NCBI RefSeq assembly: GCF_039555335.1
Contig: NC_092642.1
Location: 21,917,812 to 21,981,811 of the forward strand
Direction: 5' to 3'
Length of the DNA stretch: 64,000 bases
Source of the DNA: Amphiura filiformis
Taxonomy: Eukaryota; Echinodermata; Ophiuroidea; Amphilepidida; Amphiuridae
Both the position numbers and the translations under genes were made by a program. Positions within the stretch are counted from its first letter, which is position 1. Each line of letters opens with the position of its first letter. Of the stretch, positions 6,476-57,800 are shown piece after piece. Below the pieces are notes generated by a model, which worked only from the letters and a program-made list of their open reading frames with translations, was not told where the DNA came from and searched no databases.

Positions 6476-7917
6476 ACGAGCCGTACTGACTCAAGGCCAA
6501 AATCACCTCTTACCCAAATTCACACGAATGCACAACACACATACACTGTTTGAAGTCTTTAATTGAAAGATATGATTGGTACAAATATATGACAACAAAT
6601 TCATATATACAAAAATAATCACACAATCACAATAATATTTTAACTACTCAGTACTTAACCAGCAGTCTTCTTGTAGGTGATCATAGAGCTTTTTGTACAC
6701 TTGCATATCCTTGCGTATAAAATCCTCACACAAATATGGTGCTGCTTTCTCCAAAGGATTATCCCCTTGGGCTGCTTTCTCCAAACTTAACTCCTTGCGC
6801 TGCTTTCTCCAAACTTAACTCCTTGCGCTGCTTTCTCCAAAAATGGTGCAATTTCCACCTTTCACACAATATCTTCAGGAAGCAGGACTGCGATGCAGTT
6901 GTCCCCACTTATATTGACAGTTGCATTCAAATGTACAAGAAGACCACCAGCTGTGTAGAAGCTGTTATGGCAGCGCGGAGGTAGTCACGTGCGTATTTAT
7001 AAATACGTGTTTATAAATAACGTAGAAGCATCTTCCACATCTTCTGAGCTTCACCGTCAGTCATTGTGATAATCACTAACCAGCTCACATATAAGTCAAA
7101 GCTTTTAATGACCTATCATATGAGCAAGATTATACTTCAAAGTTGTACGAGTGACATAAATTTGACGACGTGTAAACTCTCTGGTGTAAAACTGATCAAT
7201 GAGATTCCAAGGCGTTCAATGCGTCGTGTTTGGGAAATGTTTTCCACATGTCGCGTTGCAACGTTTGCAGTTCGAATATACATTGGAGTTAAATGTTACT
7301 TTCACATCAATCTGAAAAATTCATATTCCGAGACGAACCTTGGCGGTGCACACCGCCTAGAGTAAAAAAAAAAGAAAAGAGAAAATACCGATGTTTCATT
7401 TGTCATGACTTACTTTATATTACTTTGTATTTACTAATATTTTTCTTCATTAATGATCACGGTTTTAACTCACTAACTGCCAACATTATGTATCCAGTGT
7501 GTAAGCCTAAGCGCCCGTCCGTACGTCCGAAACAGACTATTTTGTTACCAGACGTGCTAGTATTCTAACCATGCAGCTAGTCTGGATATTTTGACCGTTA
7601 CGTCACTTGTAACTAGGCATGAAGACAATTCCTCAAGGAAGAACAGATTCCCGGAACAAATTACTTGTGTTTCATCTGGTTACACATACAATGACATAAC
7701 AAAGATGGTCAGATCTACTTTTAGGAGCAGCCTGTCCTGATGACTAGTTGCCTTTTTGCTCAACTAGCGCGTCGTCTATTCGTTGGTCCTAAGCAAGTCA
7801 TGTTTGAATAATTTACTGTTACTTTTTGACAAGAATAAAACAAGCGTAATTTTTATTAGACAGTTGGGTTACTGTTTGACTAGAATATTAACGTAATTAA
7901 TAAACAGTTGAGTTTAC
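6476..7917. other. Gene-poor stretch with a short tandem repeat
   Basis: At 6750-6845 a unit of about 33 bp built on GCTGCTTTCTCCAAA is repeated about three to four times. I see no recognisable gene. This interval lies downstream of the NLR exon, where more LRR exons would be expected on the minus strand, but I could not identify any. Confidence 0.35.
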
Positions 7918-7921
7918 TCAC

Positions 7922-10780
7922 CCAAAGTTTTCACACTTTCTTTCCCGGAATAAAAAGAGTATCTCCTGCAACTGGCTAGCACTTAAACGGATATTCAGCA
8001 AACCAAAGTTGACCAAACTAGACGTTTTCAGGTTACCAATAAGATCACTAAACACTTCTTGGGACACTTCTTCGTCAGTTGCTTCACGTGCACCTACAAT
8101 AATCCATTTGAATGATTTCATTTTTGGTAATTGAGATGAGAGACATTTTAAAACATCCTCATGATGTGCGTTAATGTTCTGTACCGATAAATTTTGCAGA
8201 TGACTTTGGGTAGCCGCCTTAAAAAATTCCAATAATCCATTGCTGTCCTTCTCTGCTTTCAATGTTATCTGGTCGAGATCGAGAGACAAACTTGTCAGGG
8301 CTTCAGTTTGAGGGACGTTCGTGATGAGTACCCGTAATCCGTTATCATCGACACTATTGTCATAAGCAAACAGTGTTTTAAGATTACGTAAGGAAGGAAT
8401 CATCTCCCACAATTCCTTGGTACTCTCTGTTGGAGCTTTGTTATCCCTAATCTCGATTGTTTCTAAGGCTAATTGCAATCTGCCCATTGACATCGCCAAG
8501 TCCGCAATACCTTTCCCTCCGTGATTTAGGGATAGGTTTAATATCTTGAGGTTTCGTAAATGGTGAAGAATTCGCGAAAGCTCGATGAAATGGTCATCAA
8601 TCATCTCCGTGTTTCGCAAATCAAGGTACGTTAACAACGGTAGGCAATTGTCTCGTATGATTGAACAGATACAATCAATCTGTGCAGACAAGTTGATGTC
8701 TTGAATTTGCAAGATATGAATTGATGTAGTTCGTCTTAAACAGTCACAAAAATGCTCTAATGATCCTTCCTCAACCGCTTGCCATTCTTCAAATATGTGC
8801 CACAGTGATACTTGTGCAAGAGCGTACGACGGGCCAGCATCTTTTTCCATTTCTTTAACGATGGGATACTTCGTTGAATGACGTGTAATAAGTTCATCTT
8901 GTACCTCTAATGGCTTTTCAGATATGTCTGCAAGTTCATTTCGAAACCTGACTGAAGTCAACATTTCATTATATTCCGATGTACTTACCCAACGGCCAAA
9001 TTTTGGAGGTCCCGTAATGCGTAAAGACTTAACGAAATCAGGAGGGGCGTTCTGCACAAAATGATTGACAGCCATTGCAGTTTCAGATGTGGTCCCATAA
9101 AATACCATTTCTCCATCGGGAAAAAGTGGCAGAAATGCTTCACACTGTTTGATTCTACCTTCGTATAGGCAAAGTAAAAGTAAATTCAAAAACTCTTGAA
9201 ATCGCTCATACTTGCTTATGTCTAGGCTTACTTTTTGGAATTGTTTTATCTCAGGCTTCATTTCTTCGTCGAAGATGCGCATTAGATACTTACAAATATT
9301 TAATGCTGAAACAGGATTGATTGTTATTCCACAAGCAAACAGCAATATCAGACGAACGTGTAAAATATCAAAAATGTTACGTAACTGACGTAAATATGCA
9401 TGGAACATCTTTTGCTCAGTATCTGCTAAGTCAGCTAGGTATACGCCAGCGCAATATTCTTGAAACGTCTTATGGAAGAACTCGTAACAAACTTTCTTTT
9501 TCAGACTCGATACTAATGTTTGACGTCGTCTGGAGTGGTTGTCTTTCCCCCCAGAAGAAGACGCTTCGTCCTTTAGTAGAAAGCCAAGTTGACAAGCCAG
9601 TGATGGGTTAAAGTCATCAGATCCAGAAGATGATGCTAACTCTTCTGAAGAAAATACTAACTGATTGTTAGGAGGCCAGAGACATTTGAGGGAGATTCTT
9701 CCTAACAACAATTGCGTAACTCGTATCACTTGTTTCGTTTGATCCTTTTCACTTTCTTTTATCGGTTGTTTGGCAAAATAATGTTCTATCATATAGTCGG
9801 AAAGATCGCAATAGAGTTCTGTCATTGTGCTCATGGTCGGAGGCTCGCCCTCACTTTCAAGTCCTTGCCAATAATGACAAAGTAGTTGTGTTACTAATGG
9901 AACACTTGCTATACCAGGGTTAAAATGGTTTGATTTTAAATAGCTTATCAAACTTTTCGCCAGACTCTGTGAATCTTTGAAGACTTTACTTATATACGTA
10001 TTCACTTGGCTCTCCGAAAAGCCAGTGATCTCGAAAACAGTATAGTCTTTACATTTCTTGGAAAAATCTGTGAGATTGTTAGGCCGTGTTGTTACTAAAA
10101 CACGGCATTTTCTCAAACTAAATTTTTAAGTAGTTTTGATAAAGAACCAGATTGATCTTCACTCATATAATTTATTCGACTTTCATCATATCCATCGATA
10201 ATGATACAAACACGATGTTCATTTGCCTTTATGATTTGAAGTAGAGATTCGGGTGAGAAGTTTGAGTCTTCCGGAAGGAGTTCATGAGCAAATATGACAT
10301 CCACAAGTTCTGCATCCTTGTCAATCCATCGAATCTTGAGCAAAAAGAGCAAATCAATGAAGTCCCACGGAGATTGATGTGCCCCTGTAGCCGTGTTTTT
10401 ATTTGGTTTACGATTTTCATCCATCTGTTCAGGGTTTAAATTTGAAACAGCCCAATCATATGCAATTTTCTCCACTACTGTGGTTTTCCCACATCCAGGT
10501 CTCCCTTTAAGAATCATTCTTGTAAATGGTTTATTTTCGTTCGACCGTCTGGTAAACATTTCTTCGTATGCCTGCAAAGGTTCTTTTGCCGATTGACAAA
10601 GTCCGGGTTTTTCTATAAGCATAGAAATATTTGTAAAAACTTCGCCTAGTGGAATCATTTCAGAGTACGAAGAGCTCCACGGATATTTCTTTATTTTACC
10701 GTACGTTCTGGTATAGTAATCTACCAATGCATCTCGGCAACCTTTGAGATCACTTTCTCCGCAGGAGTCTGTTTGGCTCC
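7922..10780 (-). CDS. NLR-type gene, main exon: NACHT ATPase plus LRR start, one frameshift
   Basis: This exon encodes the sensor/ATPase core of an NLR-like cytosolic immune receptor. It starts after a TTTTAG acceptor (10781). Visible in order: a YYTRTYGKI pre-NACHT segment, Walker A GRPGCGKTT (about 10479-10505), Walker B VCIIIDGYDE (about 10185-10215), a VLVTTRP sensor block (about 10081-10105), the NACHT helical region including FFHKTFQEYCAGVYLA (about 9430-9480), then leucine-rich repeats such as LTYLDLRNTEM (about 8600) to about 7930. The frame breaks by one base near 10117-10136, where frame 1 stops just as frame 2 takes over without losing homology. One more A in the A5 run there would rejoin the frames. 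The stop at 7918-7920 is not the true end: G|GTGAGTAAAC at 7921 is a strong donor, so further LRR exons must follow. Upstream exons at 11.3-15.0 kb share compatible phases. Confidence 0.85.
7927..8700 (-). other. Leucine-rich repeat region of the NLR gene
   Basis: Repeated L-x-x-L-x-L blocks are visible, such as LTYLDLRNTEMID, LKILNLSLNHGGKG, LKTLFAYDNSVDDNG and LTSLSLDLDQ, spaced by about 25-30 residues. This is the ligand-sensing or autoinhibitory part in NLR proteins. The exon ends inside the array, at a splice donor. Confidence 0.7.
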
Positions 10781-10863
10781 CTAAAAGGCAAAAATAATTG
10801 TATACATGATTAAAGTAGAACATATGGCTGTTGAATAATATTCACTCTTTATTAAGGGCTTTA

Positions 10864-11150
10864 TTAAGGGCTCGTTTAAGCGACGTTTTTGCGTATTTTT
10901 GTGGGATCTAAGAGCACATCAGACATATCGAATTGCATTTTGATTTTTTTCCCCACAAACAACAAAAAATGTAGGTCTTTTTAAGAAAGAAATCTATATC
11001 TTCAATATGAAAGGTGAAAATGATCAATTGAAGGTCGGCTTTTCCTCCCAGCTACATACACTTTAAGTACATATCATTAGATTTATAAAGAATTTCAAAA
11101 AATCAAAATTATATGATATCAGAAGGATATTACTCGTATTCAGAATGCAG
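10864..11150. mobile_element. TTAA MITE, copy 2, internally deleted
   Basis: It begins TTAAGGG at 10864 and shares the ACATCAGACATATCGAATTGC block and the AAAGGTGAAAATGATCAATTG block with the other copies. It lacks most of the left half and decays near 11150. It sits in the intron between the linker exon (ending 11289) and the NACHT exon (starting 10780). Confidence 0.65.
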
Positions 11151-11288
11151 TATCTTCCACACAAACGTTGCTATCCGATTCCTTAATCTACCCATATCTA
11201 ACATTTTATACTTGAACAATTTGATATCTGCGTACCTCTGCTTTCCTTCGGCTGTGCAATTTCTGTTGCTGGAATTTGTGACATCAAC

Positions 11289-11499
11289 TTTTTATTGGTT
11301 TAACTTTCTCTTCTATCATTTCTCCGAAAGCAATTTCTCTCCGTTTATTCTCTTCTCTTTCTTCTTTAAGCTGTTTAAGGACTTCATCTTCGCAAGCAGC
11401 AATTCCTTGAAATTCATCTGCTAAGAATTCCTTCATGGTTTGCGTCAGTGGAGCTTTAGCGTTTTCTGTTGCCTCAGATGTAGGCAAAGACTTTCGTAT
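11289..11499 (-). CDS. NLR-type gene, linker exon (helical)
   Basis: After the acceptor ATATAATACAG (ending 11500) the frame reads IRKSLPTSEATENAK and continues as a charged helical segment ending KQLKEEREENKRREIAFGEM. It is rich in E and K, like a coiled-coil linker. It is entered in phase 0, matching the exon upstream. The proposed donor AAAAA|GTTGAT at 11289/11288 is weak but leaves phase 1, which is exactly what the NACHT exon needs. No domain is recognised. The tie to the NLR gene rests on order, strand and phase. Confidence 0.55.
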
Positions 11500-11827
11500 C
11501 TGTATTATATAATGAGGCACAGACGGAGATCAAATTAAACATGGTAAAATGTGCTTTTATCAATTCGGTATTGATATCACGGTGTTGTTATTTTAGAAGT
11601 ACCATTTTGAAGCAATGTGTCAGATGAGTTTGTGGGTGTGTATCGGATGCTATTAATGGGGGAGGGGCCTGGGGTGTGTAGGGATGTGGTTCTGATAAGG
11701 GAGGACCTTGTGATGTGGGTAGATGGGTTACGGTTTTCGGGAACGTTTTCATTGTGTTAGTAGGTATGGTAGTGGTTTGGGGAGCTACATATATGCGTGT
11801 ATATATATACATTACAAAACGGTGTAC

Positions 11828-11998
11828 CTGGTTAAGGCGGGATTTGACGTCACCATCTTCATGTGAAATCTTGTTGACACGCGTCAGGCTTTCTATGAGA
11901 GTCTGAATATCTTGAAAATATTCGTCCATTGTCGAGTCCTCTATCCGAAACTGGTCCTTCATTTTCAAATGGCAAAGTTCATTCCGAATTTGGAACAC
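11828..11998 (-). CDS. NLR-type gene, exon with HEPN-like R-x4-H motif
   Basis: Following the acceptor CTAATTTTAAAG (ending 11999), the exon encodes 57 residues beginning VFQIRNELCHLKMKDQF and ending at a CAG|GTACAC donor. Entry and exit are both phase 0. RNELCH is an arginine, four residues and a histidine, the catalytic signature of HEPN-fold RNases. The same position in human CXorf38 carries a comparable R-x4-H. Joined to the preceding exon it gives ...YNALKQVFQIRNELCH, matching the KQ-V-x-x-x-RN-x-L-x-H pattern of that family. HEPN modules sit at the N-terminus of some invertebrate NLRs. RNase activity is inference. Confidence 0.65.
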
Positions 11999-11999
11999 C

Positions 12000-12600
12000 T
12001 TTAAAATTAGGTGAAGAATATGGCATTGAATATAAAAGTATAAATACAAATATTATACATTTTAATGCATAAATTATTTCTTGTCAATATGTTATTAACA
12101 ATTATAAATCATAACAAAAATATCGCTCAAAGTATTATTTTCAGTCACTGTCAGCTCAGGTTTTAACAGGTTTAAAGTATGTTGCCAATTAACCATGTCA
12201 TTGGATATAACAGAATGAAGGTATCGGGTACAAAATTTTGAAAACAGTGGGTCGTTTGGTATACATTTTTGAGAAGTAATCGGTTAAAAATTTCCCATGG
12301 AACAAAATTATATTTTTTTTTTTAAGTTTGCAAAATTTACAATACGAAGTTTCTGAAATAAGAGAATTTTTCCGCATTATTTTATGGCATTTTGATGATA
12401 CAGTTCTAAAAGAAAGGGGAGTCACTGGGTAGTCGAACCTAAGAATTACATAACAACAAGTTGCCATACACCAAGTGACAAACTATAATGAGCTGTGACA
12501 TTATCACCCAATTTACATCTCGCTGTCCACAGCCAATACAATTAGACATATCATTTATACACAATGCGATAGAAAATTATAATAATAGTGTATTTATTAT
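12000..12600. other. Intronic DNA with a degenerate repeat related to 39.8-40.0 kb
   Basis: Within the NLR intron, 12205-12450 shares blocks such as GGCATTTTGATGATAC and a GGGTAGTCG-like end with 39800-40010 ('...GGGTCATCGGGTAG' family). No coding signal is seen. Confidence 0.4.
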
Positions 12601-12629
12601 GCAAATAACCAGTTTCCTTGCTCATGTGT

Positions 12630-13240
12630 AATTCTCGCTATTCGCAATAAGGGCGCCGCCAGCGGTTTGCGATGTATCATGGGAAAAATCGTGATGTATC
12701 GTGGGAAAATGTGACAATTAAGTTTTTCTCTATCGATTACGAATAATACCGTTATATTGACAAACTAAACGTGACAATATTTTTTAGTTTGTCAAAATAA
12801 AGGTGTTACATATTCGATACTCAATAATACTTAATGTGATTTGAAATGTACATCAATTTTTCCCTGATACATCGATTTGCGTGCTGGCGGCCCCTTATTG
12901 ACAAACTAAAAATCCCAGACAAACAAGAACCTAGACCTATAACTTTGGTTTGCGTAGTGAAGTCAACACTGCTTAGCAACGATTTTGACAAGGACGAAAC
13001 CCGGACGCAAACAAGCAGACATGTTCGCGTCTACAGAACATTTTGCGTTTGACGCGGGCGATAACGGCGCAGCAATCACGCAAACGATCGCGTTTTTCGT
13101 TCCAGACATGAACGCTTATTTCTCCGCGTCCGACCACCCGACCAAAATCACCTTGGATACGTGGCTTCACCTACTGCCATGGTTAGTGATGGGCAGTTAC
13201 AGGTCTAGGTGGTATGTCTATGCGAATAGCGAGAATTAGC
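12630..13240. repeat. Possible inverted-repeat element
   Basis: The outer ends AATTCTCGCTATTCGCA (12630) and TGCGAATAGCGAGAATT (13224-13240) are exact reverse complements of 17 bases, about 600 bp apart. Beyond that the arms diverge quickly, and no target duplication is evident. It lies in the intron of the NLR gene. Confidence 0.45.
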
Positions 13241-13609
13241 ACCATTGGCCTGTTTGCCAAATATGGGCATTATAGCGAAAATGTATTAATATTACAAGGT
13301 ATATGAAGAGAATATATCCGGAAGGTGTCCAAATTAGGCTCGAATATACCTTATGGTCGATACTATCGAGTGAGTTTGATATTTTTAAGAATGAACTGTA
13401 GAATGAATGGTAGCAATGGCATCGGGCCTTGATTCACTACAAAACAGTCAAAATGCTTGTTTTAAACTAAATGTCACGTGATGGCACCAAAAGTGTTCAC
13501 TTGTTGTCCCTTTTTTCTCCATTTGAAACTTAACATTCCCCCTCACGGTTCAAGTAAAAAATTCAGATTCCCCCTCAAGACCTCCCCCCAATCAGAATCC
13601 CCCAACAGC

Positions 13610-13890
13610 CCAGCAAACACAAAATGTTTTACAGAAAACGTTTAAATGTCTGGTTATAGAAAGGGTATAAAAACGTTTTAATAACATTCCAAAAACATTT
13701 TTGAAAACTTGATACAAAACATTATAAACAAAATGTTATTTTGGGGTTGAAAAATTGTTTTGCGAAAAATGTTTGACCAAAATATTTGCAATAATGTTTT
13801 AAAAATGTTTCCATGACCTTTATATAACCCGACATTTAAATGTTATTAAAACGTTTTGAAAATAACAAAGAACATTTCTGTGTTTGCTGG
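13610..13890. repeat. MITE with CCAGCAAACACA ends
   Basis: The ends CCAGCAAACACAAAATGTT and AACATTTCTGTGTTTGCTGG pair. The interior repeats AAACGTTTTAA and AAAATGTTT-type words. A relative lies at about 52300-52377 and 53664-53825, where it was split by the Penelope-like insertion. Confidence 0.65.
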
Positions 13891-13960
13891 ACAGTCCCTA
13901 AGGTTCTCATGTACGTGGCGCTGGTACGTTTCACATTAGATTTGACTTCAAAATCTCGAT

Positions 13961-14420
13961 CTATAGACCTTTTTCTCACACGTCACCAATCAATCGATAT
14001 TGGGGTCCAGCATTCGAGTCATTAGCACCCAAACGCAAATACCGCGCCGGCGCGAGCGATCAACTTTGCGCCACGCTAGGCGTCCTGCGCGGAATTGCCA
14101 GCTCGCAGTACGCGTATAGTTCGCCACGGTGTAAAAAGTAAACAAAATTGTGAAACAAAACAAAGATTGAATTTTGAATAGCATCGCGGTTTTTCCGTAT
14201 CTTTTGTATTTTATAACTGGAACAAAGGTAACTAGTATACAGTTCCCGTTTAAACAATTATTTTATGGAAGCTAACGTGAAATATGACAAAACAGAGGAG
14301 AAAATACGCAGTATTTGGTGTTTTTACATCGTGGACACGTGAGAAACGCAGTGCACGTGTTGTTTGTTTACATCTCAGACCCCAATATCGATTAGGTGAC
14401 GTCATCAGAAAAAGGTCTAT
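13961..14420. repeat. MITE with ATAGACCTTTTTCT ends
   Basis: The left arm CTATAGACCTTTTTCTCACA...ATCGATATTGGGGTC pairs with the right arm GACCCCAATATCGAT...AGAAAAAGGTCTAT over about 45 bp. It sits in the intron of the NLR gene just downstream of the first recognised exon. Confidence 0.65.
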
Positions 14421-14508
14421 ATTATACGCCACTGCGTACACGCACAGTCCGCACGCAGGGGCATCTAAATGTCCAAATGCAACCCGATGTGTATTCGTAT
14501 ATGCATAC

Positions 14509-14979
14509 CTGTTTTAAGGCATTGTATACATCCATATCTTCATTATGGTATCCTCTGAAATACATCATTATTTTGAGCAAGCTACCAGAATCAAAATCAC
14601 GTAGCTGTTGTTTATGGTGGTCCTCTAGTTCGGATGGTGTTTGAAACACAAAAACTTTGGATAGCTCAATAGGATCTTGACATATATTGGACGGAGAAAC
14701 ATTCTTCCAAGAAATCTCCCAAGTCTTTGGAAAACATATTTCTTGGATTGCCTCGCCCCACTCCACGCATGACCTGCAAAACTTGTTCTTTGTGGTAGGT
14801 TTCTTCCTCAGTGGACATCTTTCAGGGGTCAGACAGGGACGTAATGTTTGTTTCTTTGCTTCATGCCATGTTTCTAGTGCGGACTGGAGGCTAGGCACCG
14901 CAACCGAAGTAACCAATTGAACAGCCGCGTGACACTTTATGAAGTTGGTCATCAACTCCATTGTAGGTATATTGATGCT
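14509..14979 (-). CDS. NLR-type gene, CXorf38-like N-terminal exon
   Basis: A clear acceptor (TTTTTATTTTCAG, ending 14980) opens a frame in which the first ATG is at 14961. The protein reads MELMTNFIKCHAAVQLV, later CRSCVEWGEAIQ, WKNVSPSNICQDPIELSKVF and a block ending DMDVYNALKQ at a CAG|GTATGC donor (14509/14508). The C-x-x-C-x-x-W, W-x-N and D-P-x-E-L-x-K-x-F spacing matches the N-terminal part of the animal CXorf38-like family, whose biochemical role is not established. Exit is phase 0 and fits the exon at 11998. The start could be ATG 14961 or lie in an upstream exon, since the open frame extends back to the acceptor. Confidence 0.7.
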
Positions 14980-17917: not shown

Positions 17918-18122
17918 CAGGCCCGTACGCAAAAAGTCCCAAAATTTATGAATTTGCGAGCGTAGCGAGCAAAAAAATCAGGTTTTTTACGGCTTTTTGG
18001 TCAAAAAAGGTCCAAATTTTGGGGGAAAAGTTCACTTTTCACGAAATCGCCTCCCCCCCTTTGGAAAAAGTCCACTTTTTCAAAATCAGCACCCCCAAAA
18101 AGAAATCCTGCGTACGGGCCTG
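17918..18122. mobile_element. hAT-like MITE with perfect 8-bp target duplication
   Basis: The ends CAGGCCCGTACGCA and GCGTACGGGCCTG are inverted. GTTTTGTT lies on both sides (17910-17917 and 18123-18130). An 8-bp duplication and CAG...CTG ends are hAT hallmarks. At 205 bp it has no transposase and is non-autonomous. Confidence 0.85.
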
Positions 18123-18639
18123 GTTTTGTTTTTTTTATTTTATCTTCCTGTTCGGGTGTTTCGGTTGGCACATTTTCGGGGCATTTTCATGCACTTCACA
18201 GGAGTTTTTCGTGGTTTCTCTGTAGCTGCCGTGTGTACTTTTCCCCACGTACAGGGTATAAATCCCGGGGTATAAATAAATAAATGAATAATAACATATA
18301 AAAAAACAGAATCTGGAACTTCAACGTCAAAAAACAAGACAAATTGTACCCTGCTAAAAATATCAACCCATATCCTCTCTGAGAATAAAAATAATAAGAC
18401 TCCAACCTCACCTGCAAAAAAATATTTTTTCGGGGATAATTTGGGATAAGTTCGGGCCTATTTTATTGCGACAATTTTCAAAATCTATAAGGTGAAATGT
18501 GGGAGTAACTACAGAATACCCCTCTCGGGGGTATAGTTGTATAAAGTTGTAACATGTTTGTATGTATTGGAATAGGGTGTTTTGTGCTTGAGTGGGGTAT
18601 TCTGTTTTAATGATTTGTGTATGGTAATGTTCTGAGTAT

Positions 18640-20000
18640 GGTATCCTGGAAACTAAGTATAGGTCTTGGTTTTTTTGTGGGCGCAGTCGGCACAGACATA
18701 GTTGAAAAACCGACAGAGTTGGCGTTTGACGTGGACGCAGTTTAAATTGGCGGGTTAATCAATGCAGCGTAGATGCATTATTTAAGTCGCAGTTGAAAAA
18801 AATGAAGTCTGTTTGTTTGTTTGTAATTTATAGTGTTTTTTTTGCTAGATGTACTACTCGGGAGTGTATGTGCCCGGTATAATAGGTGTCGGTTTTTAAC
18901 AAGGCGCAGTCGGCGCAGACGTAGTCAAAAAATTGACATGTTTGTTCTTTGGGGCGTGGTCGCAGTATTGCATGGGAATCAGGTGTTTTGTGCGTGAGTG
19001 GTTGATTGTGTTGTAATGAGTTGTGTATGATAATGTTGTGAGTGTGGTATTCTGGAGACTAAGTATAGGTCTTGGTTTTTTTGTGGGCGCAGTCGGCGCA
19101 GACGTTGTTGAAAATTGACAGGTTTTTTCTTTAAGCGTGGACATAGTTGAAAGTGAGGATTTTATAAATTGGGCGTGGACGTAGATTAGCGGGGGATTTG
19201 TCCCCGTTACCGTTGAAGGAGTACAAGATGTGGTACGTTTGTGTATGGTAGTAGGCCTATGTGAATTATATTTGGTACTACACGTATACCTGGACAAATT
19301 CTATGTCTAGTTTTTATGTCGGCGTAGTCGGCGCAGACGTAGTTGCAAATTAACAGGTTTAGGGCTTTGAGCTTGGACGTGGATAAAATTGGTGATTTTA
19401 TGAATGGGACATAGTGTTGGGGGATTTGTTTCCTTTACGTTAAATTAGTTTAAATGACTATAATATGTTAGTTTGTGTTTGATTGTGTGTGAATGTGGGC
19501 AGTACATGTACAGTTGGACATAGTTCTTGATTTTTATGTCGGCGCAGTCGGCGCAGCCGTAGTTGAAAGTGGCAGATTTAGCATTTGGACGTGGACGTGG
19601 TTAAAAGTGGCGATTTTATAAATGGGGCGTGGATGCAGTATTGCGAGGGAATTTGTCCGCAATGGGGTTGAAGGAGTAGGCCATCAATATGTTGCTTTGT
19701 GTTTGATAGTGTTTGAATTTTTTGTTGGTACATGTAAGTTGGACAACGTATAGATCCTGGTTTTATGGCGGCGTAGTCGGCGCAGACGTAGTTACAATTG
19801 GCAAGTTTGTGCTTTGGGCGTGGTCGTAGTTAAAATGTGATTTTATATATGGGAATGGTCGATTTGTTCCCGATGAAGCTGATTGGTATGCTATGTTGTT
19901 TGGATATAGGTCGGGGTTTTTATGTCGGCGCAGTCGGCGCAGACGTTGTTCAAATGATGGCACGTTCTGGGTTTAGGCGTGGATGTTTAAATTCAGTATG
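18640..20000. repeat. Satellite array with GCGCAGTCGGCGCAGACG core
   Basis: The core starts at 18681, 18904, 19087, 19322, 19542, 19771 and 19928, a spacing of 157-235 bp and mostly about 220-235. Units also share GGGCGTGGACGTAG, TTTATAAATGGG and ATTTGTCC words. It is a degenerate tandem array. Its core reappears inverted at 40477-40790. Small minus-strand frames across it (for example 18896-19297) merely translate the repeat. Confidence 0.8.
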
Positions 20001-40464: not shown

Positions 40465-40800
40465 ACTATGTCCACGCCGACTGCGCCAACATAAAACCAA
40501 GACCTATAAGCCCTCTATCGAATTCAGAACTACGTCTGCGCCGACTGCGCCAACATAAAACCAAGACCTACACGCAAGTGTGTCTATGTCCTGTTAAGAA
40601 GCATGCTGTTTTCAAAGCCCCATATCGAATTCAGAACTACGTCTACGCCGACTGCGCCAACATAAAACCAAGAATAAGCCCTCTATCGAATTCAGGACTA
40701 CGTCTGCGCCGACTGCGCCAACATAAAACCAAGAATAAGCCCTCTATTGAATTCAGAACTACGTCTGCGCCGACTGCGCCAACATAAAACCAAGAATTGC
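40465..40800. repeat. Minisatellite with CCGACTGCGCCAACATAAAA core
   Basis: The core starts at 40477, 40541, 40648, 40709 and 40770, i.e. units of about 61-64 bp with one spaced by 107. Each unit also has ATCGAATTCAGAACTACGTC. The core is the reverse complement of the 18.7-20.0 kb array. Frames reading LRRLRQHKTK are translations of the repeat. Confidence 0.8.
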
Positions 40801-40882
40801 GTGCATATCCTATTTGGACTTGGACGCACTTGTTTAATGGCCCATGGTGTGGAACCTTGGACGCACTCAAATAATGAGTTTT

Positions 40883-41198
40883 CAACGGCGTCTACGCCGA
40901 CCAACACCGTCGGGCTGTTTTCAACCAACACGCCCTCTCTGTCTGAAATTATTTGTCCAAATACCAGAATCCCAAAAGCCATGTCGTGACTGTAGGGGGA
41001 TTATTTGTCCAACTACTAGATAGATGGCGCTTCGTTGAAGACACTGCGTCTACGCCGACCAACACCGTCGGGCTGTTTGCAACCAACACGCCCTCTCTGT
41101 CTGAAATTGTTTGTCCAAATACCAGAATCCAAAAAGCCACGTCGTGACTCTAGGGGGATTATTTGTCCAACTACTAGATAGATGGCGCTTCGTTGAAG
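40883..41198. repeat. 158-bp tandem duplication
   Basis: Two near-identical copies (shift 158 bases: TCTACGCCGACC at 40891 and 41049; TTATTTGTCCAACTACTAG at 41001 and 41159). It contains a partial version of the neighbouring minisatellite core and then fades to 41280. Confidence 0.75.
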
Positions 41199-41279
41199 AC
41201 ATTTGTCCAAGAACCAAAATGTAAAAAGAAATTATGATGTGACTATAGGGGATTATTTGTCAAAATACAAGAAAATATC

Positions 41280-48790: not shown

Positions 48791-49720
48791 TACCCAGATA
48801 ACATATACTTATTGGGCCAATATTGGCAAAAAGTTGTATTGGCATTACATCAGTATATAATATTGGGCCAATATTGGCTCACCATTCATTGGCAGCTGAT
48901 CTCGGGCCAATAATAAACCAATCATTGGTTTAATGTTGGCCTTTTATATATCATTTGATTGGCATTACATCAGTATATAATATTGGGCCAATCTTGGCTT
49001 TCAATTGGCCATTTTTACATTGGCATCATGTTGGCAGCCAATATAGGTTATCACACCAATTTCGGTAACAAATTGGGTAACAATATGGTAATAAATAATT
49101 ATTGTGATGAGTACTAGTGTTTGGAAGACCTTATTTAAATCCTAAATATTATACTAAGTTGAAATAATAGGAAACAAAACCACGGATGATAAAACGCAGG
49201 GCAAACGCTATTTAACACCACGGATTATTTATTTTAAAGAAAATACACAAGAATTTTCGGCAATTTCAATTCTAAGACCATACTTTTAAAGATAATTTCT
49301 AAAGTACGTGTCACCATGCTATCAAATACTCTTGATGGCTATTCAACACCACGGTGATGAGTCGTGTTCCTCTCTTACCGTGAAGCGGGCAAGAGATGAT
49401 ACATATCGTCCGAGCCAATAACATCCAATAATTAAAGTAATCCATTGCATCAATATTGGCCCAATACTAAAATTACATATTGTTAAAACATTGGCAGCCA
49501 ATTGTTTGCCAATGAGAAATAGGTACAGGCCCAATGTTGGTTCAATAACTGTGACAAGGTTTGGGCCAAGCTGGGGCCAACATTGGCCCAAGCCCAATAT
49601 TGAGCCAACCTTGGGCCCATGAGCAAAACATGATTGGCCCAATACTGTCAGCCAATGTTGGGCCAATTGAACTCAAACATTGGCCCTTCTTTGGGCCACC
49701 ATTGCCATGCTATCTGGGTA
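48791..49720. repeat. MITE with TACCCAGATA ends and ATTGGCCCAAT repeats
   Basis: The ends TACCCAGATAACA and TGCTATCTGGGTA are inverted. Both flanking parts carry many ATATTGGCCCAAT-like palindromic words, and one block (GGCATTACATCAGTATATAA) is duplicated at about 48841 and 48961. The middle, about 49100-49430, differs and may be a later insertion. Confidence 0.65.
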
Positions 49721-51452: not shown

Positions 51453-51620
51453 TTAAAACATAGACGCAGGACGTCTCTTTTCCCAGTCACTTATTTTATC
51501 ATTTTGGCCAACACGTCGTCTTAAACCACTTAATTTGGGAAATTTGGCGAAAATGTCCTTTCCGAGCATAGTTGCTATGTTGGTATATTGGTTGTAGAAA
51601 TGGATATCGGCTAGAGTCAT
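51453..51620 (-). CDS. Sigma-class glutathione S-transferase, last exon
   Basis: A textbook acceptor (TTTTTGTCTTTCTTCCTTGCAG) opens MTLADIHFYNQYTNIATML, then FAKFPKLSGLRRRVGQNDK and a WEKRRPASMF end with a TAA stop. The LADI...FPKL...W-x-x-RP pattern is the conserved C-terminal end of sigma-class GSTs, which conjugate glutathione or, as haematopoietic prostaglandin D synthase, isomerise prostaglandin H2 in the cytosol. The upstream exon at 54658-54764 ends one base out of phase with this one, which is discussed there. Confidence 0.8.
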   Translation of the reverse strand: MTLADIHFYNQYTNIATMLGKDIFAKFPKLSGLRRRVGQNDKISDWEKRRPASMF

Positions 51621-51859
51621 CTGCAAGGAAGAAAGACAAAAAGTATTTAACAGTAATATACAGCAATCCCGTGATTTCGGCACAACACCGTTGTTGACAG
51701 AACAAGGTAGCTTGGTTTTACCAGTTGCAGTTTTTGCTTTGTTAATAATTATTGTTCTATGGGCGGTACAAAATGAGATTTTTGAAATCTGTAACCCCTG
51801 GGCGATTCGAGATATCAAAGGTCAAAGTTTATACAGGGGTCAAAATTAAACACTGGTCC

Positions 51860-55226: not shown

Positions 55227-55350
55227 TTTTTGCCTAATAAGGCAAATACAGGGTGTATCGAAATTATTGGAACCATCCAGTGAGCATGTTTTTTGCGGGT
55301 GATGTGTCGGGTTTTGTTGTTGTTGTTGTTGTTGTATTTTTTTACAGAAG
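55139..55350. repeat. Long target-site duplication, 5' copy
   Basis: From ATCATTCAAAA to TTTTTTACAGAAG this equals 58242-58464 apart from homopolymer and TTG run lengths and a GCCTAATAAGG/AATTTTT difference. It immediately precedes the L1-like element. Confidence 0.75.
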
Positions 55351-56953
55351 AAAGAAACGTCTCAAAATCAATAAGACTCCGGGTTCTGATGGATTGACTC
55401 CAGAATTTTATAAAACATTTTGGGATGACATTAAATACATGTTTGTTAATGCAATCAATGAAGGTTTTCAAGAGGGACAACTGTCGTATACACAGCGTAA
55501 AGGAGTAATAACCTTACTATACAAAAAGGGTGATAGATCGAATTTAGATAATTGGCGTCCTATCTCATTGCTCAATTATGACTATAAAATATGTGCGATG
55601 GCTCTAGCACTGAGATTACACAAAGTTCTTGATAAAGTGATAAATCCGGAGCAAACAGGGTATGTGAAGGGTCGTTTTAGTGGCCAAAATATTCGTCTGA
55701 TAGAAGATGCGATAGAATTTTGTACGAATAATAAACAGGAGGGTGCAGTATTATTTGTTGACTTTCGAAAAGCTTTCGATACGCTAGAAATACCGTTTAT
55801 TGATAAATGTTTAATCAAAATGGGTTTTGGTGAACAGTTCCGAAAATGGGTATCTACTCTATATTGTAACATTAATAGTTGTGTTTCTGTAAATGGATGG
55901 TTATCCGAATCTTTTACAATCAGCAGAGGTATTAGGCAAGGATGTCCTCTCTCGGCCCTTTTATTCATAATAGCGGTAGAATTTTTATCTGGGGATATTA
56001 AACAAAACCAGAAAATACAGGGTATCGAAATTGGAAATGAGTCTGATTTAGAGATTAAGTTAGTCCAATTGGCTGACGATACTACTTTACTTGTCAGAAA
56101 TGAAACATCAGTTGTGAAAGCATTGGAAGCAATTGAAAAATTTAGTGATTCTGCGGGAATTAGGCTTAACAAAAACAAAACAGAAGGTATTTGGTTGGGA
56201 GACAGTCCCCCTAACATTCCTCAAACAACTATCTCGTGGTCAACACAACCTATTAAAAGTCTAGGTATGTACTTTGGAAAAGATATTGAGAAATGTCATA
56301 AATTGATATGGTCTGAAAAATTAAAGAAAATGGAACTTGCTTTGAACGGATGGAAAGCCAGAAAACTATCATATTATGGTAAAATATCAGTTGTCAAGAC
56401 TTTCGGTGTTTCACAACTACTATATTGTGCATATTCTATACATGTACCAGATTATGTGATAAAAGAAGCAAACAAAATGCTCTTTCAATTTATTTGGGGT
56501 TCAAAGAGGGAAAAAGTCAAAAGAACGGGATACATGGAATATGGTGGCTTGAAAATGATAGACCTGCAAAGCCAAATAAGAGCTCTAAAAATTAAATGGA
56601 TTTCAAGATTACTTTGCGAAAATGATCATGGTATTTGGATAAAAATAGCAAAATTTTGGTTTAATCAAATAGGAGGCCTAGATTTTGTACTTAATTTGGA
56701 ATGTAAGTCCTCTAATGTATCGGAAGTAACAAAAGAAAAAATTCCCAAGTTCTACACAGAGATACTAAAATCTTGGTTTATGTTGAAAAAAAAGAATGCT
56801 GATGCCTCTTTACACGAAGCAAGAGTACTTCATGATCAAATAATCTGGTACAATAATGACATAAAATTTAGAAATAAGTTGCTTATGTTTAAGAAGTGGA
56901 AAGATGCTGGTATAATGTACTTAAGTGATATTGTAATCAATAATCGTTTATAA
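55351..56953 (+). pseudogene. L1-like ORF2 reverse transcriptase domain, truncated
   Basis: An open frame covers the whole reverse transcriptase: KTPGSDGLTPEFYKTFW at the start, NWRPISLLNYDYKI, catalytic VDFRKAFD (Asp codon at 55760), RGIRQGCPLSALLF and the LADD box (Asp codons at 56075 and 56078) in place of the usual YADD. The frame reads upstream to an ATG at 55253, but those 33 residues come from flanking DNA, not from the element. After VINNRL a stop follows; the true continuation lies in another frame (YNSFELRQIV), so a one-base shift near 56950 has broken the protein. The N-terminal endonuclease is absent. Confidence 0.85.
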
Positions 56954-57470
56954 CTCTTTTGAGCTAAGACAAATAGTTCGGTGTCCAAATGATGTTTTTA
57001 ACTTGCATACATTACTGACAGCAATACCAAAAGAATGGAAAACGTTAATTTTAAATAATCATGTAGATTTCAACAAAACAAAGGGCAATGATCGATTATT
57101 TCAAGTTGGGAAAACCAAACTACACATTTCAAAGCTATCCACAAAACAAATATATAAACTTTTAATGCCATCAGAATGCGACCCAATTTGCGTTAAATAT
57201 TGGCAAGATCACTTCAATTGTAATACAAGTAAATCATCTTGGAGACAAATCTTCACTTTTAAAATAAAAAATAGAATTCGAAACAAATTTGGACACTTTC
57301 AATATAACCTTTTATATAACCTAATACCGTGTAAGAAAAACCTATTGAAATGGAAGATTAGTAATTCGGACGAATGTTGTTTCTGCAATTGTCGTGAGGA
57401 CTATGAACACTTTTTCATATCATGCAGGAAAAATACATCATTTTGGATTTTCTTTAAAGAATGCGTGTTA
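56946..57470 (+). pseudogene. L1-like ORF2 C-terminal part with zinc-knuckle-like region
   Basis: In the shifted frame the protein continues through LLTAIPKEWKTLI and ends with CCFCNCREDYEHFFISC, the Cys/His cluster typical of the ORF2 C-terminus. The frame then runs into foreign sequence near 57470. Confidence 0.7.
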
Positions 57471-57800
57471 ATTACAACACACACACTCATACTCGTAGCG
57501 CAGTCTAAATGAGGAGACAGAAAAGCATAGTGTGTGAAGTGTGTTAAACTGTGCACACTTTACATACAATACGAGGAGTTTTCACAGGAATGTGAGGAGG
57601 TGTGTGAGGAGAACTTAGCACAAATACAATTATGGATCTCCTCGAATTGAAGGCAAAAATGCCAGAAAAAGACGTCCTAACCCCCCTATAGGGTTCTCCA
57701 CTTTGAGAAGCTTCTCGAATTACTGCTTTTTGGGTCTAACCTCCTCGAATTCCTGTGTTTGTAAACACTCAACTCCTGGTTTCGCACGCGCTACACACGC
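57470..57800. repeat. ~330-bp insertion inside the L1-like element
   Basis: This block interrupts the ORF2 C-terminus. It is rich in ACACAC and GTGTGTGA words and carries CTCCTCGAATT twice (about 57637 and 57740). The element's coding sequence resumes at LEHIIYGWNKKDSHFDFVN (57818). Exact ends and family are unclear. Confidence 0.45.

Follow-up and report, generated by a model that had tools for sequence, protein, structure and literature searches.

A probable fusion of a CXorf38-family HEPN domain with a NACHT and leucine-rich repeat receptor, frame-broken as assembled, in the ophiuroid Amphiura filiformis

To investigate a candidate immune receptor locus in Amphiura filiformis, we analysed a 64,000-nucleotide stretch of its genome (assembly GCF_039555335.1, contig NC_092642.1, forward-strand positions 21,917,812 to 21,981,811; hereafter the window, with coordinates counted from its first letter). 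The minus strand of this window probably holds a gene in which a CXorf38-family HEPN domain is fused to a NACHT domain and leucine-rich repeats (LRRs). The domain order can be read at the DNA level, and the Walker residues of the NACHT and the R-x4-H residues of the predicted HEPN are intact. We consider it likely, with reservations set out below, that the locus is an invertebrate-type nucleotide-binding, leucine-rich repeat receptor (NLR) with a CXorf38-family HEPN that includes a zinc-ribbon-like cysteine cluster, a linker, a NACHT ATPase and LRRs, for which a ribonuclease (RNase) mechanism is proposed.

The N-terminal assignment is carried by matches to DUF4559 (Pfam PF15112; 305 profile positions, curated cut-off 27 bits), a domain contained in human CXorf38 (PMC4554924, cited from partial text). 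As an open reading frame (ORF) alone, exon 1 (14509..14979, minus strand, as for all exons below; likely start codon ATG at 14961) encodes the N-terminal part of the CXorf38/DUF4559 region and matches profile positions 8-143 at 42.5 bits. Exon 2 (11828..11998), which encodes the remainder of the predicted HEPN core, matches positions 145-205 at 21.6 bits, under the cut-off, and the two matches occupy consecutive stretches of the profile. Exon 3 (11289..11499, possibly reaching 11236) encodes a charged linker that lies in part within the profile, with no Pfam match when searched by itself. Joined, exons 1-3 match DUF4559 at 75.5 bits over positions 8-248, passing the cut-off, compared with a sum of 64.1 bits for the separate matches (the excess includes the added exon 3 positions). 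The CXorf38-like N-terminus proposed in an earlier reading of these letters (the sequence-only reading) is thereby borne out. Exon 1 also bears two cysteine pairs (CLTPERC and CRSC), which appear to fit the zinc ribbon published as an insertion in the CXorf38 HEPN family. Other matches were set aside: apart from DUF4559, the joined N-terminal part matched Pfam families only under their own cut-offs (Med16_bridge at E 0.004, the rest weaker), and four PDB entries named GCN4, matched by exons 1-2 at E 0.15 or worse, were taken as chance. No paralogue of the gene was detected within the window (best match outside the gene, E 0.27).

That this domain is a HEPN is plausible from family membership and the literature. 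A 2013 survey (Anantharaman et al.; PMC3710099, cited throughout from partial text) placed CXorf38 in a Swt1-like HEPN group, described a zinc ribbon as an insertion within its HEPN domain and predicted it to be active; the HEPN assignment of CXorf38, offered in the sequence-only reading as its own idea, was therefore already in print. The motif RNELCH, an R-x4-H, is encoded in exon 2 inside the DUF4559 match, and agrees with the pattern R-x4-6-H with a polar residue after the arginine (here asparagine), the polar residue being typical of HEPN families that retain the motif (PMC3710099). R-x4-H by itself was rejected as evidence for a HEPN, being common by chance: translated in six frames, the window contains the pattern R[NDH]xxxH 34 times, and the motif alone is weak. 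Several searches weigh against the assignment. Against Pfam, the joined protein matched no family named HEPN, and HEPN_DZIP3 was not among the families listed, although the exon 2 ORF alone matched that profile (PF18738) under its cut-off of 27 bits (12.5 bits, E 0.13). The NCBIfam search with exons 1-2 likewise returned no family named HEPN, its single match (E 0.17) being taken as chance. Pattern searches for relatives of the joined exons 1-2 gave 19 matches in viral_contigs and 54 in genome_contigs, none confirmed by tblastn, in collections that are viral or prokaryotic and have little bearing on animals. Structure prediction of exon 1 alone, with no alignment, gave a mean predicted local distance difference test score (pLDDT) of 34.7, which is uninformative as to the helical HEPN fold, where the motif is expected to end helix 3.

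These observations also bear on whether the domain would cut RNA, an activity predicted from R-x4-H only. A working fusion in which the N-terminal domain, rather than being an RNase, is non-catalytic and serves as an adaptor or in RNA binding would accord with the frequency of R-x4-H text by chance and with the absence of the words HEPN, RNase and nuclease from two papers on human CXorf38 (by term counts only). We nevertheless think this somewhat unlikely: the R-N-x3-H lies inside the profile match, its arginine is followed by the polar residue noted above, and the CXorf38 family is listed as active, by prediction, in the available text of the 2013 survey (PMC3710099). In the open-access literature, whose papers on CXorf38 were covered in part, we came across no assay of RNase activity for a CXorf38-type domain.

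The NACHT domain is encoded in exon 4, which begins at 10780. Its first frame (10116..10780) has an intact Walker A (GRPGCGKTT) and an intact Walker B (CIIIDGYDE) and matches Pfam NACHT at 45.6 bits (cut-off 26.7 bits), confirming the sequence-only reading on this point; in a PDB sequence search, one of the two matches to this frame was NLRP6 (E 8e-4). In the assembled sequence, however, the exon is not a single open reading frame, a point that the sequence-only reading missed: a stop at 10113-10115 closes the first frame, and the remainder of the domain is in a different frame, open from 10125 (7918..10125, with its stop codon at 7918-7920), so that the two open frames overlap at 10113..10125. 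The second frame matches profile positions 118-166 at 26.8 bits, and the two frames joined with an X at the break reach 77.8 bits. An intron spanning the break was rejected by eye, as the nearby GT sites inspected were out of phase and NACHT text would be lost.

With at least one frame break, the copy reads as one of two things: a working gene whose assembly is in error, or a recent pseudogene. A degraded NLR copy, in which the break in NACHT and perhaps another in exon 3 would block the full product, is a possibility that we take seriously without expecting it, and it is compatible with the fusion. The break itself argues for degradation, as does a better exon 3 donor that lies only past a stop codon (see below), whereas the Walker and R-x4-H residues are intact, both frames of exon 4 are otherwise long and open, and the problem sites in NACHT and exon 3 both fall at short A runs. 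Base-count errors are common at such runs in assemblies. The long interspersed nuclear element (LINE) at 55-57.5 kb, considered as another instance of a broken frame, was uninformative.

Beyond the break, the second frame encodes the NACHT remainder, a helical region and probable LRRs. At 735 codons it is far longer than expected by chance, the longest open frame among 500 first-order Markov simulations of 7000-11000 being 195. A single-sequence AlphaFold model of this 735-residue part was of low confidence (mean pLDDT 42.2, with 607 of the 735 residues below 50), and placed six LRR-like strand-helix repeats from residue 556 onward, with block mean pLDDT values of 51-80 only from about residue 631. 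With this low-confidence model as query, the best Foldseek matches in the PDB were NLRP2, NAIP/NLRC4, NLRP14 and the LRR of NLRP1, followed by ribonuclease inhibitor and axonemal LRR proteins; TM-scores were low and 2 of the 675 matches had E <=0.001. No Pfam LRR family passed its cut-off, either for single ORFs or for the joined protein. The LRRs claimed from the letters thus appear as repeats in the model but not as profile matches, and the C-terminal part is probably an NLR C-terminus with LRRs.

Joining these parts into one gene depends on three exon junctions. Donors were ranked among the 396 GT sites in 15500-7900 with approximate splice tables. Junctions 1-2 and 2-3 keep the reading frame open and are phase 0, the phase on both sides of exon 2; the exon 1 donor (CAG/GTATGC, the slash marking the exon boundary) stands at the 99.7th percentile and the exon 2 donor at the 96.7th, and the exon 1 acceptor reads TTTTCAG/A. 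The phase compatibility that had been claimed is therefore sound at these two junctions. Junction 3-4 is weaker, which the sequence-only reading also missed: its donor must be either in frame but very weak, or strong but past a stop. Ahead of its stop, exon 3 contains four GT sites, and the only one in the phase required by exon 4, after 11289, has a rank at the 37.6th percentile. The 99.0th percentile is reached by the donor after 11236, which lies past a stop codon. Either a poor donor is used or a second frame break is present in exon 3. Skipping of exon 3 was rejected, since phase 0 at the end of exon 2 does not agree with the phase 1 that exon 4 requires. Junction 3-4 is the weakest link in the model, and the fusion depends on it. 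The four-exon structure first proposed accordingly stands for exons 1-3, in phases and profile, but not for a NACHT exon in a single open frame or for a firm junction 3-4.

These donor problems, together with the stop in the first NACHT frame, count against the fusion, and so do features of the last intron and its surroundings that would suit two genes or a gene with two ends. Under that alternative, exons 1-3 would encode a stand-alone CXorf38-like protein that stops at 11284-11286, from a transcript polyadenylated near 10.85 kb; the NACHT-LRR exon would form part of a different transcript or come in only through alternative splicing. Read-through of exon 3 stops after about 279 residues (the DUF4559 profile has 305 positions), and the in-frame donor is weak. 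The last intron has two AATAAA motifs (10848..10865; at 10865 and 10853) shortly before the NACHT exon, and an ATG in the NACHT frame (10821..10823, upstream of the exon 4 acceptor and within the ORF 10841-10113) could start a NACHT protein that lacks the DUF4559 part, though its presence does not imply its use. AATAAA is a motif match only; the same scan (11830-10700) found it inside exon 3 as well, at 11349 and 11296, and a scan of 7960-6500 placed one at 7852..7857, about 60 bases past the stop codon of exon 4, as a possible gene end. Against separate genes stand the pyrimidine-rich acceptor at the NACHT exon (TTTTTGCCTTTTAG/G), the strong donor at the end of the extended exon 3 and the DUF4559-NACHT fusions published in other animals, and we regard the division into two genes as unlikely. 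Profile matches to the joined model support the order CXorf38/DUF4559, NACHT, probable LRR, and we infer that the exons are transcribed as one message.

If so, the most likely mechanism would be as follows. The LRRs would hold the NACHT closed until a ligand binds; nucleotide exchange in the NACHT and oligomerisation would follow; and clustering would bring HEPN domains together in pairs, as active, metal-independent RNases that work through R-x4-H. By analogy with RNase L, the RNA that they cut may be that of a virus or of the host. More specifically, we propose, tentatively and as one possibility, that in this animal lineage the CXorf38-type HEPN is the direct effector of the NLR, with oligomerisation switching on the RNase without a death-fold adaptor and the zinc-ribbon insert helping to choose the RNA. 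The RNA-cutting immune receptor suggested in the sequence-only reading is plausible, but the idea is not new: it has already been published as a hypothesis.

The locus is a further example of a known fusion and not a new kind of receptor, as CXorf38-NACHT fusions have been published since 2013. In the survey's available text (PMC3710099), CXorf38-type HEPN domains are fused to NACHT and DEATH domains in cephalochordates and cnidarians, with a defence role suggested by analogy with RNase L. Those CXorf38-NACHT proteins share with the present locus the CXorf38 domain, R-x4-H, the probable fusion to NACHT and, putatively, the inserted zinc ribbon; family members described there carry DEATH, CARD, ankyrin or double-stranded RNA-binding domains, whereas here the partners are a NACHT and probable LRRs, frame-broken as assembled. 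In the clam Corbicula fluminea, DUF4559 occurs in 45 of the 99 members of the NLRP family (PMC8298618, cited from partial text), and so shares the same predicted proteins with NACHT, although in the section on that family DUF4559 is not termed a HEPN, no RNA cutting is proposed and the order of the domains is not stated. HEPN-NACHT fusion is also shared by the DZIP3/hRUL138-like receptors, which number more than 50 in the pearl oyster (PMC9646362), where the HEPN is N-terminal and mostly Rx4-6H, and 17 to 83 in anthozoan expansions among cnidarians (PMC8260672); these belong to a different HEPN family (PF18738), to which the present locus has only the subthreshold exon 2 match. RNase L shares the proposed logic of a HEPN-superfamily RNase activated in an immune response (an analogy drawn in PMC3710099) but differs in having a KEN-type HEPN and ankyrin repeats, and no NACHT-LRR. 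With this locus, a probable CXorf38-HEPN/NACHT/LRR gene joins a group that sequence surveys have already described. Should the RNase prediction prove right, detection and execution would be combined in a single animal receptor protein, resembling the bacterial HEPN-STAND proteins mentioned in the available survey text (PMC3710099) and giving a lead on the function of human CXorf38.

Elsewhere in the window, the LINE-type element (55241-57509, plus strand) matches RVT_1 at 126.7 bits and then zf-RVT at 34.8 bits in an overlapping frame. An ORF at 51456-51821 on the minus strand matches the glutathione S-transferase C-terminal domain GST_C_3 at 28.5 bits and the glutathione transferase in PDB entry 9p6k at E 1.8e-4. 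A U3 small nucleolar RNA match (49274-49389, plus strand; 36.9 bits, gathering score 34) spans 116 bases, where the model has 219 positions, and is possibly a degraded copy or chance. Adjoining tandem repeats at 40615-41201 have units of 61 and 158 bases that are 95-96% alike, and GC skew reaches +0.32 in one 2-kb stretch (18001-20000), compared with 0.021 and 0.066 in its neighbours.

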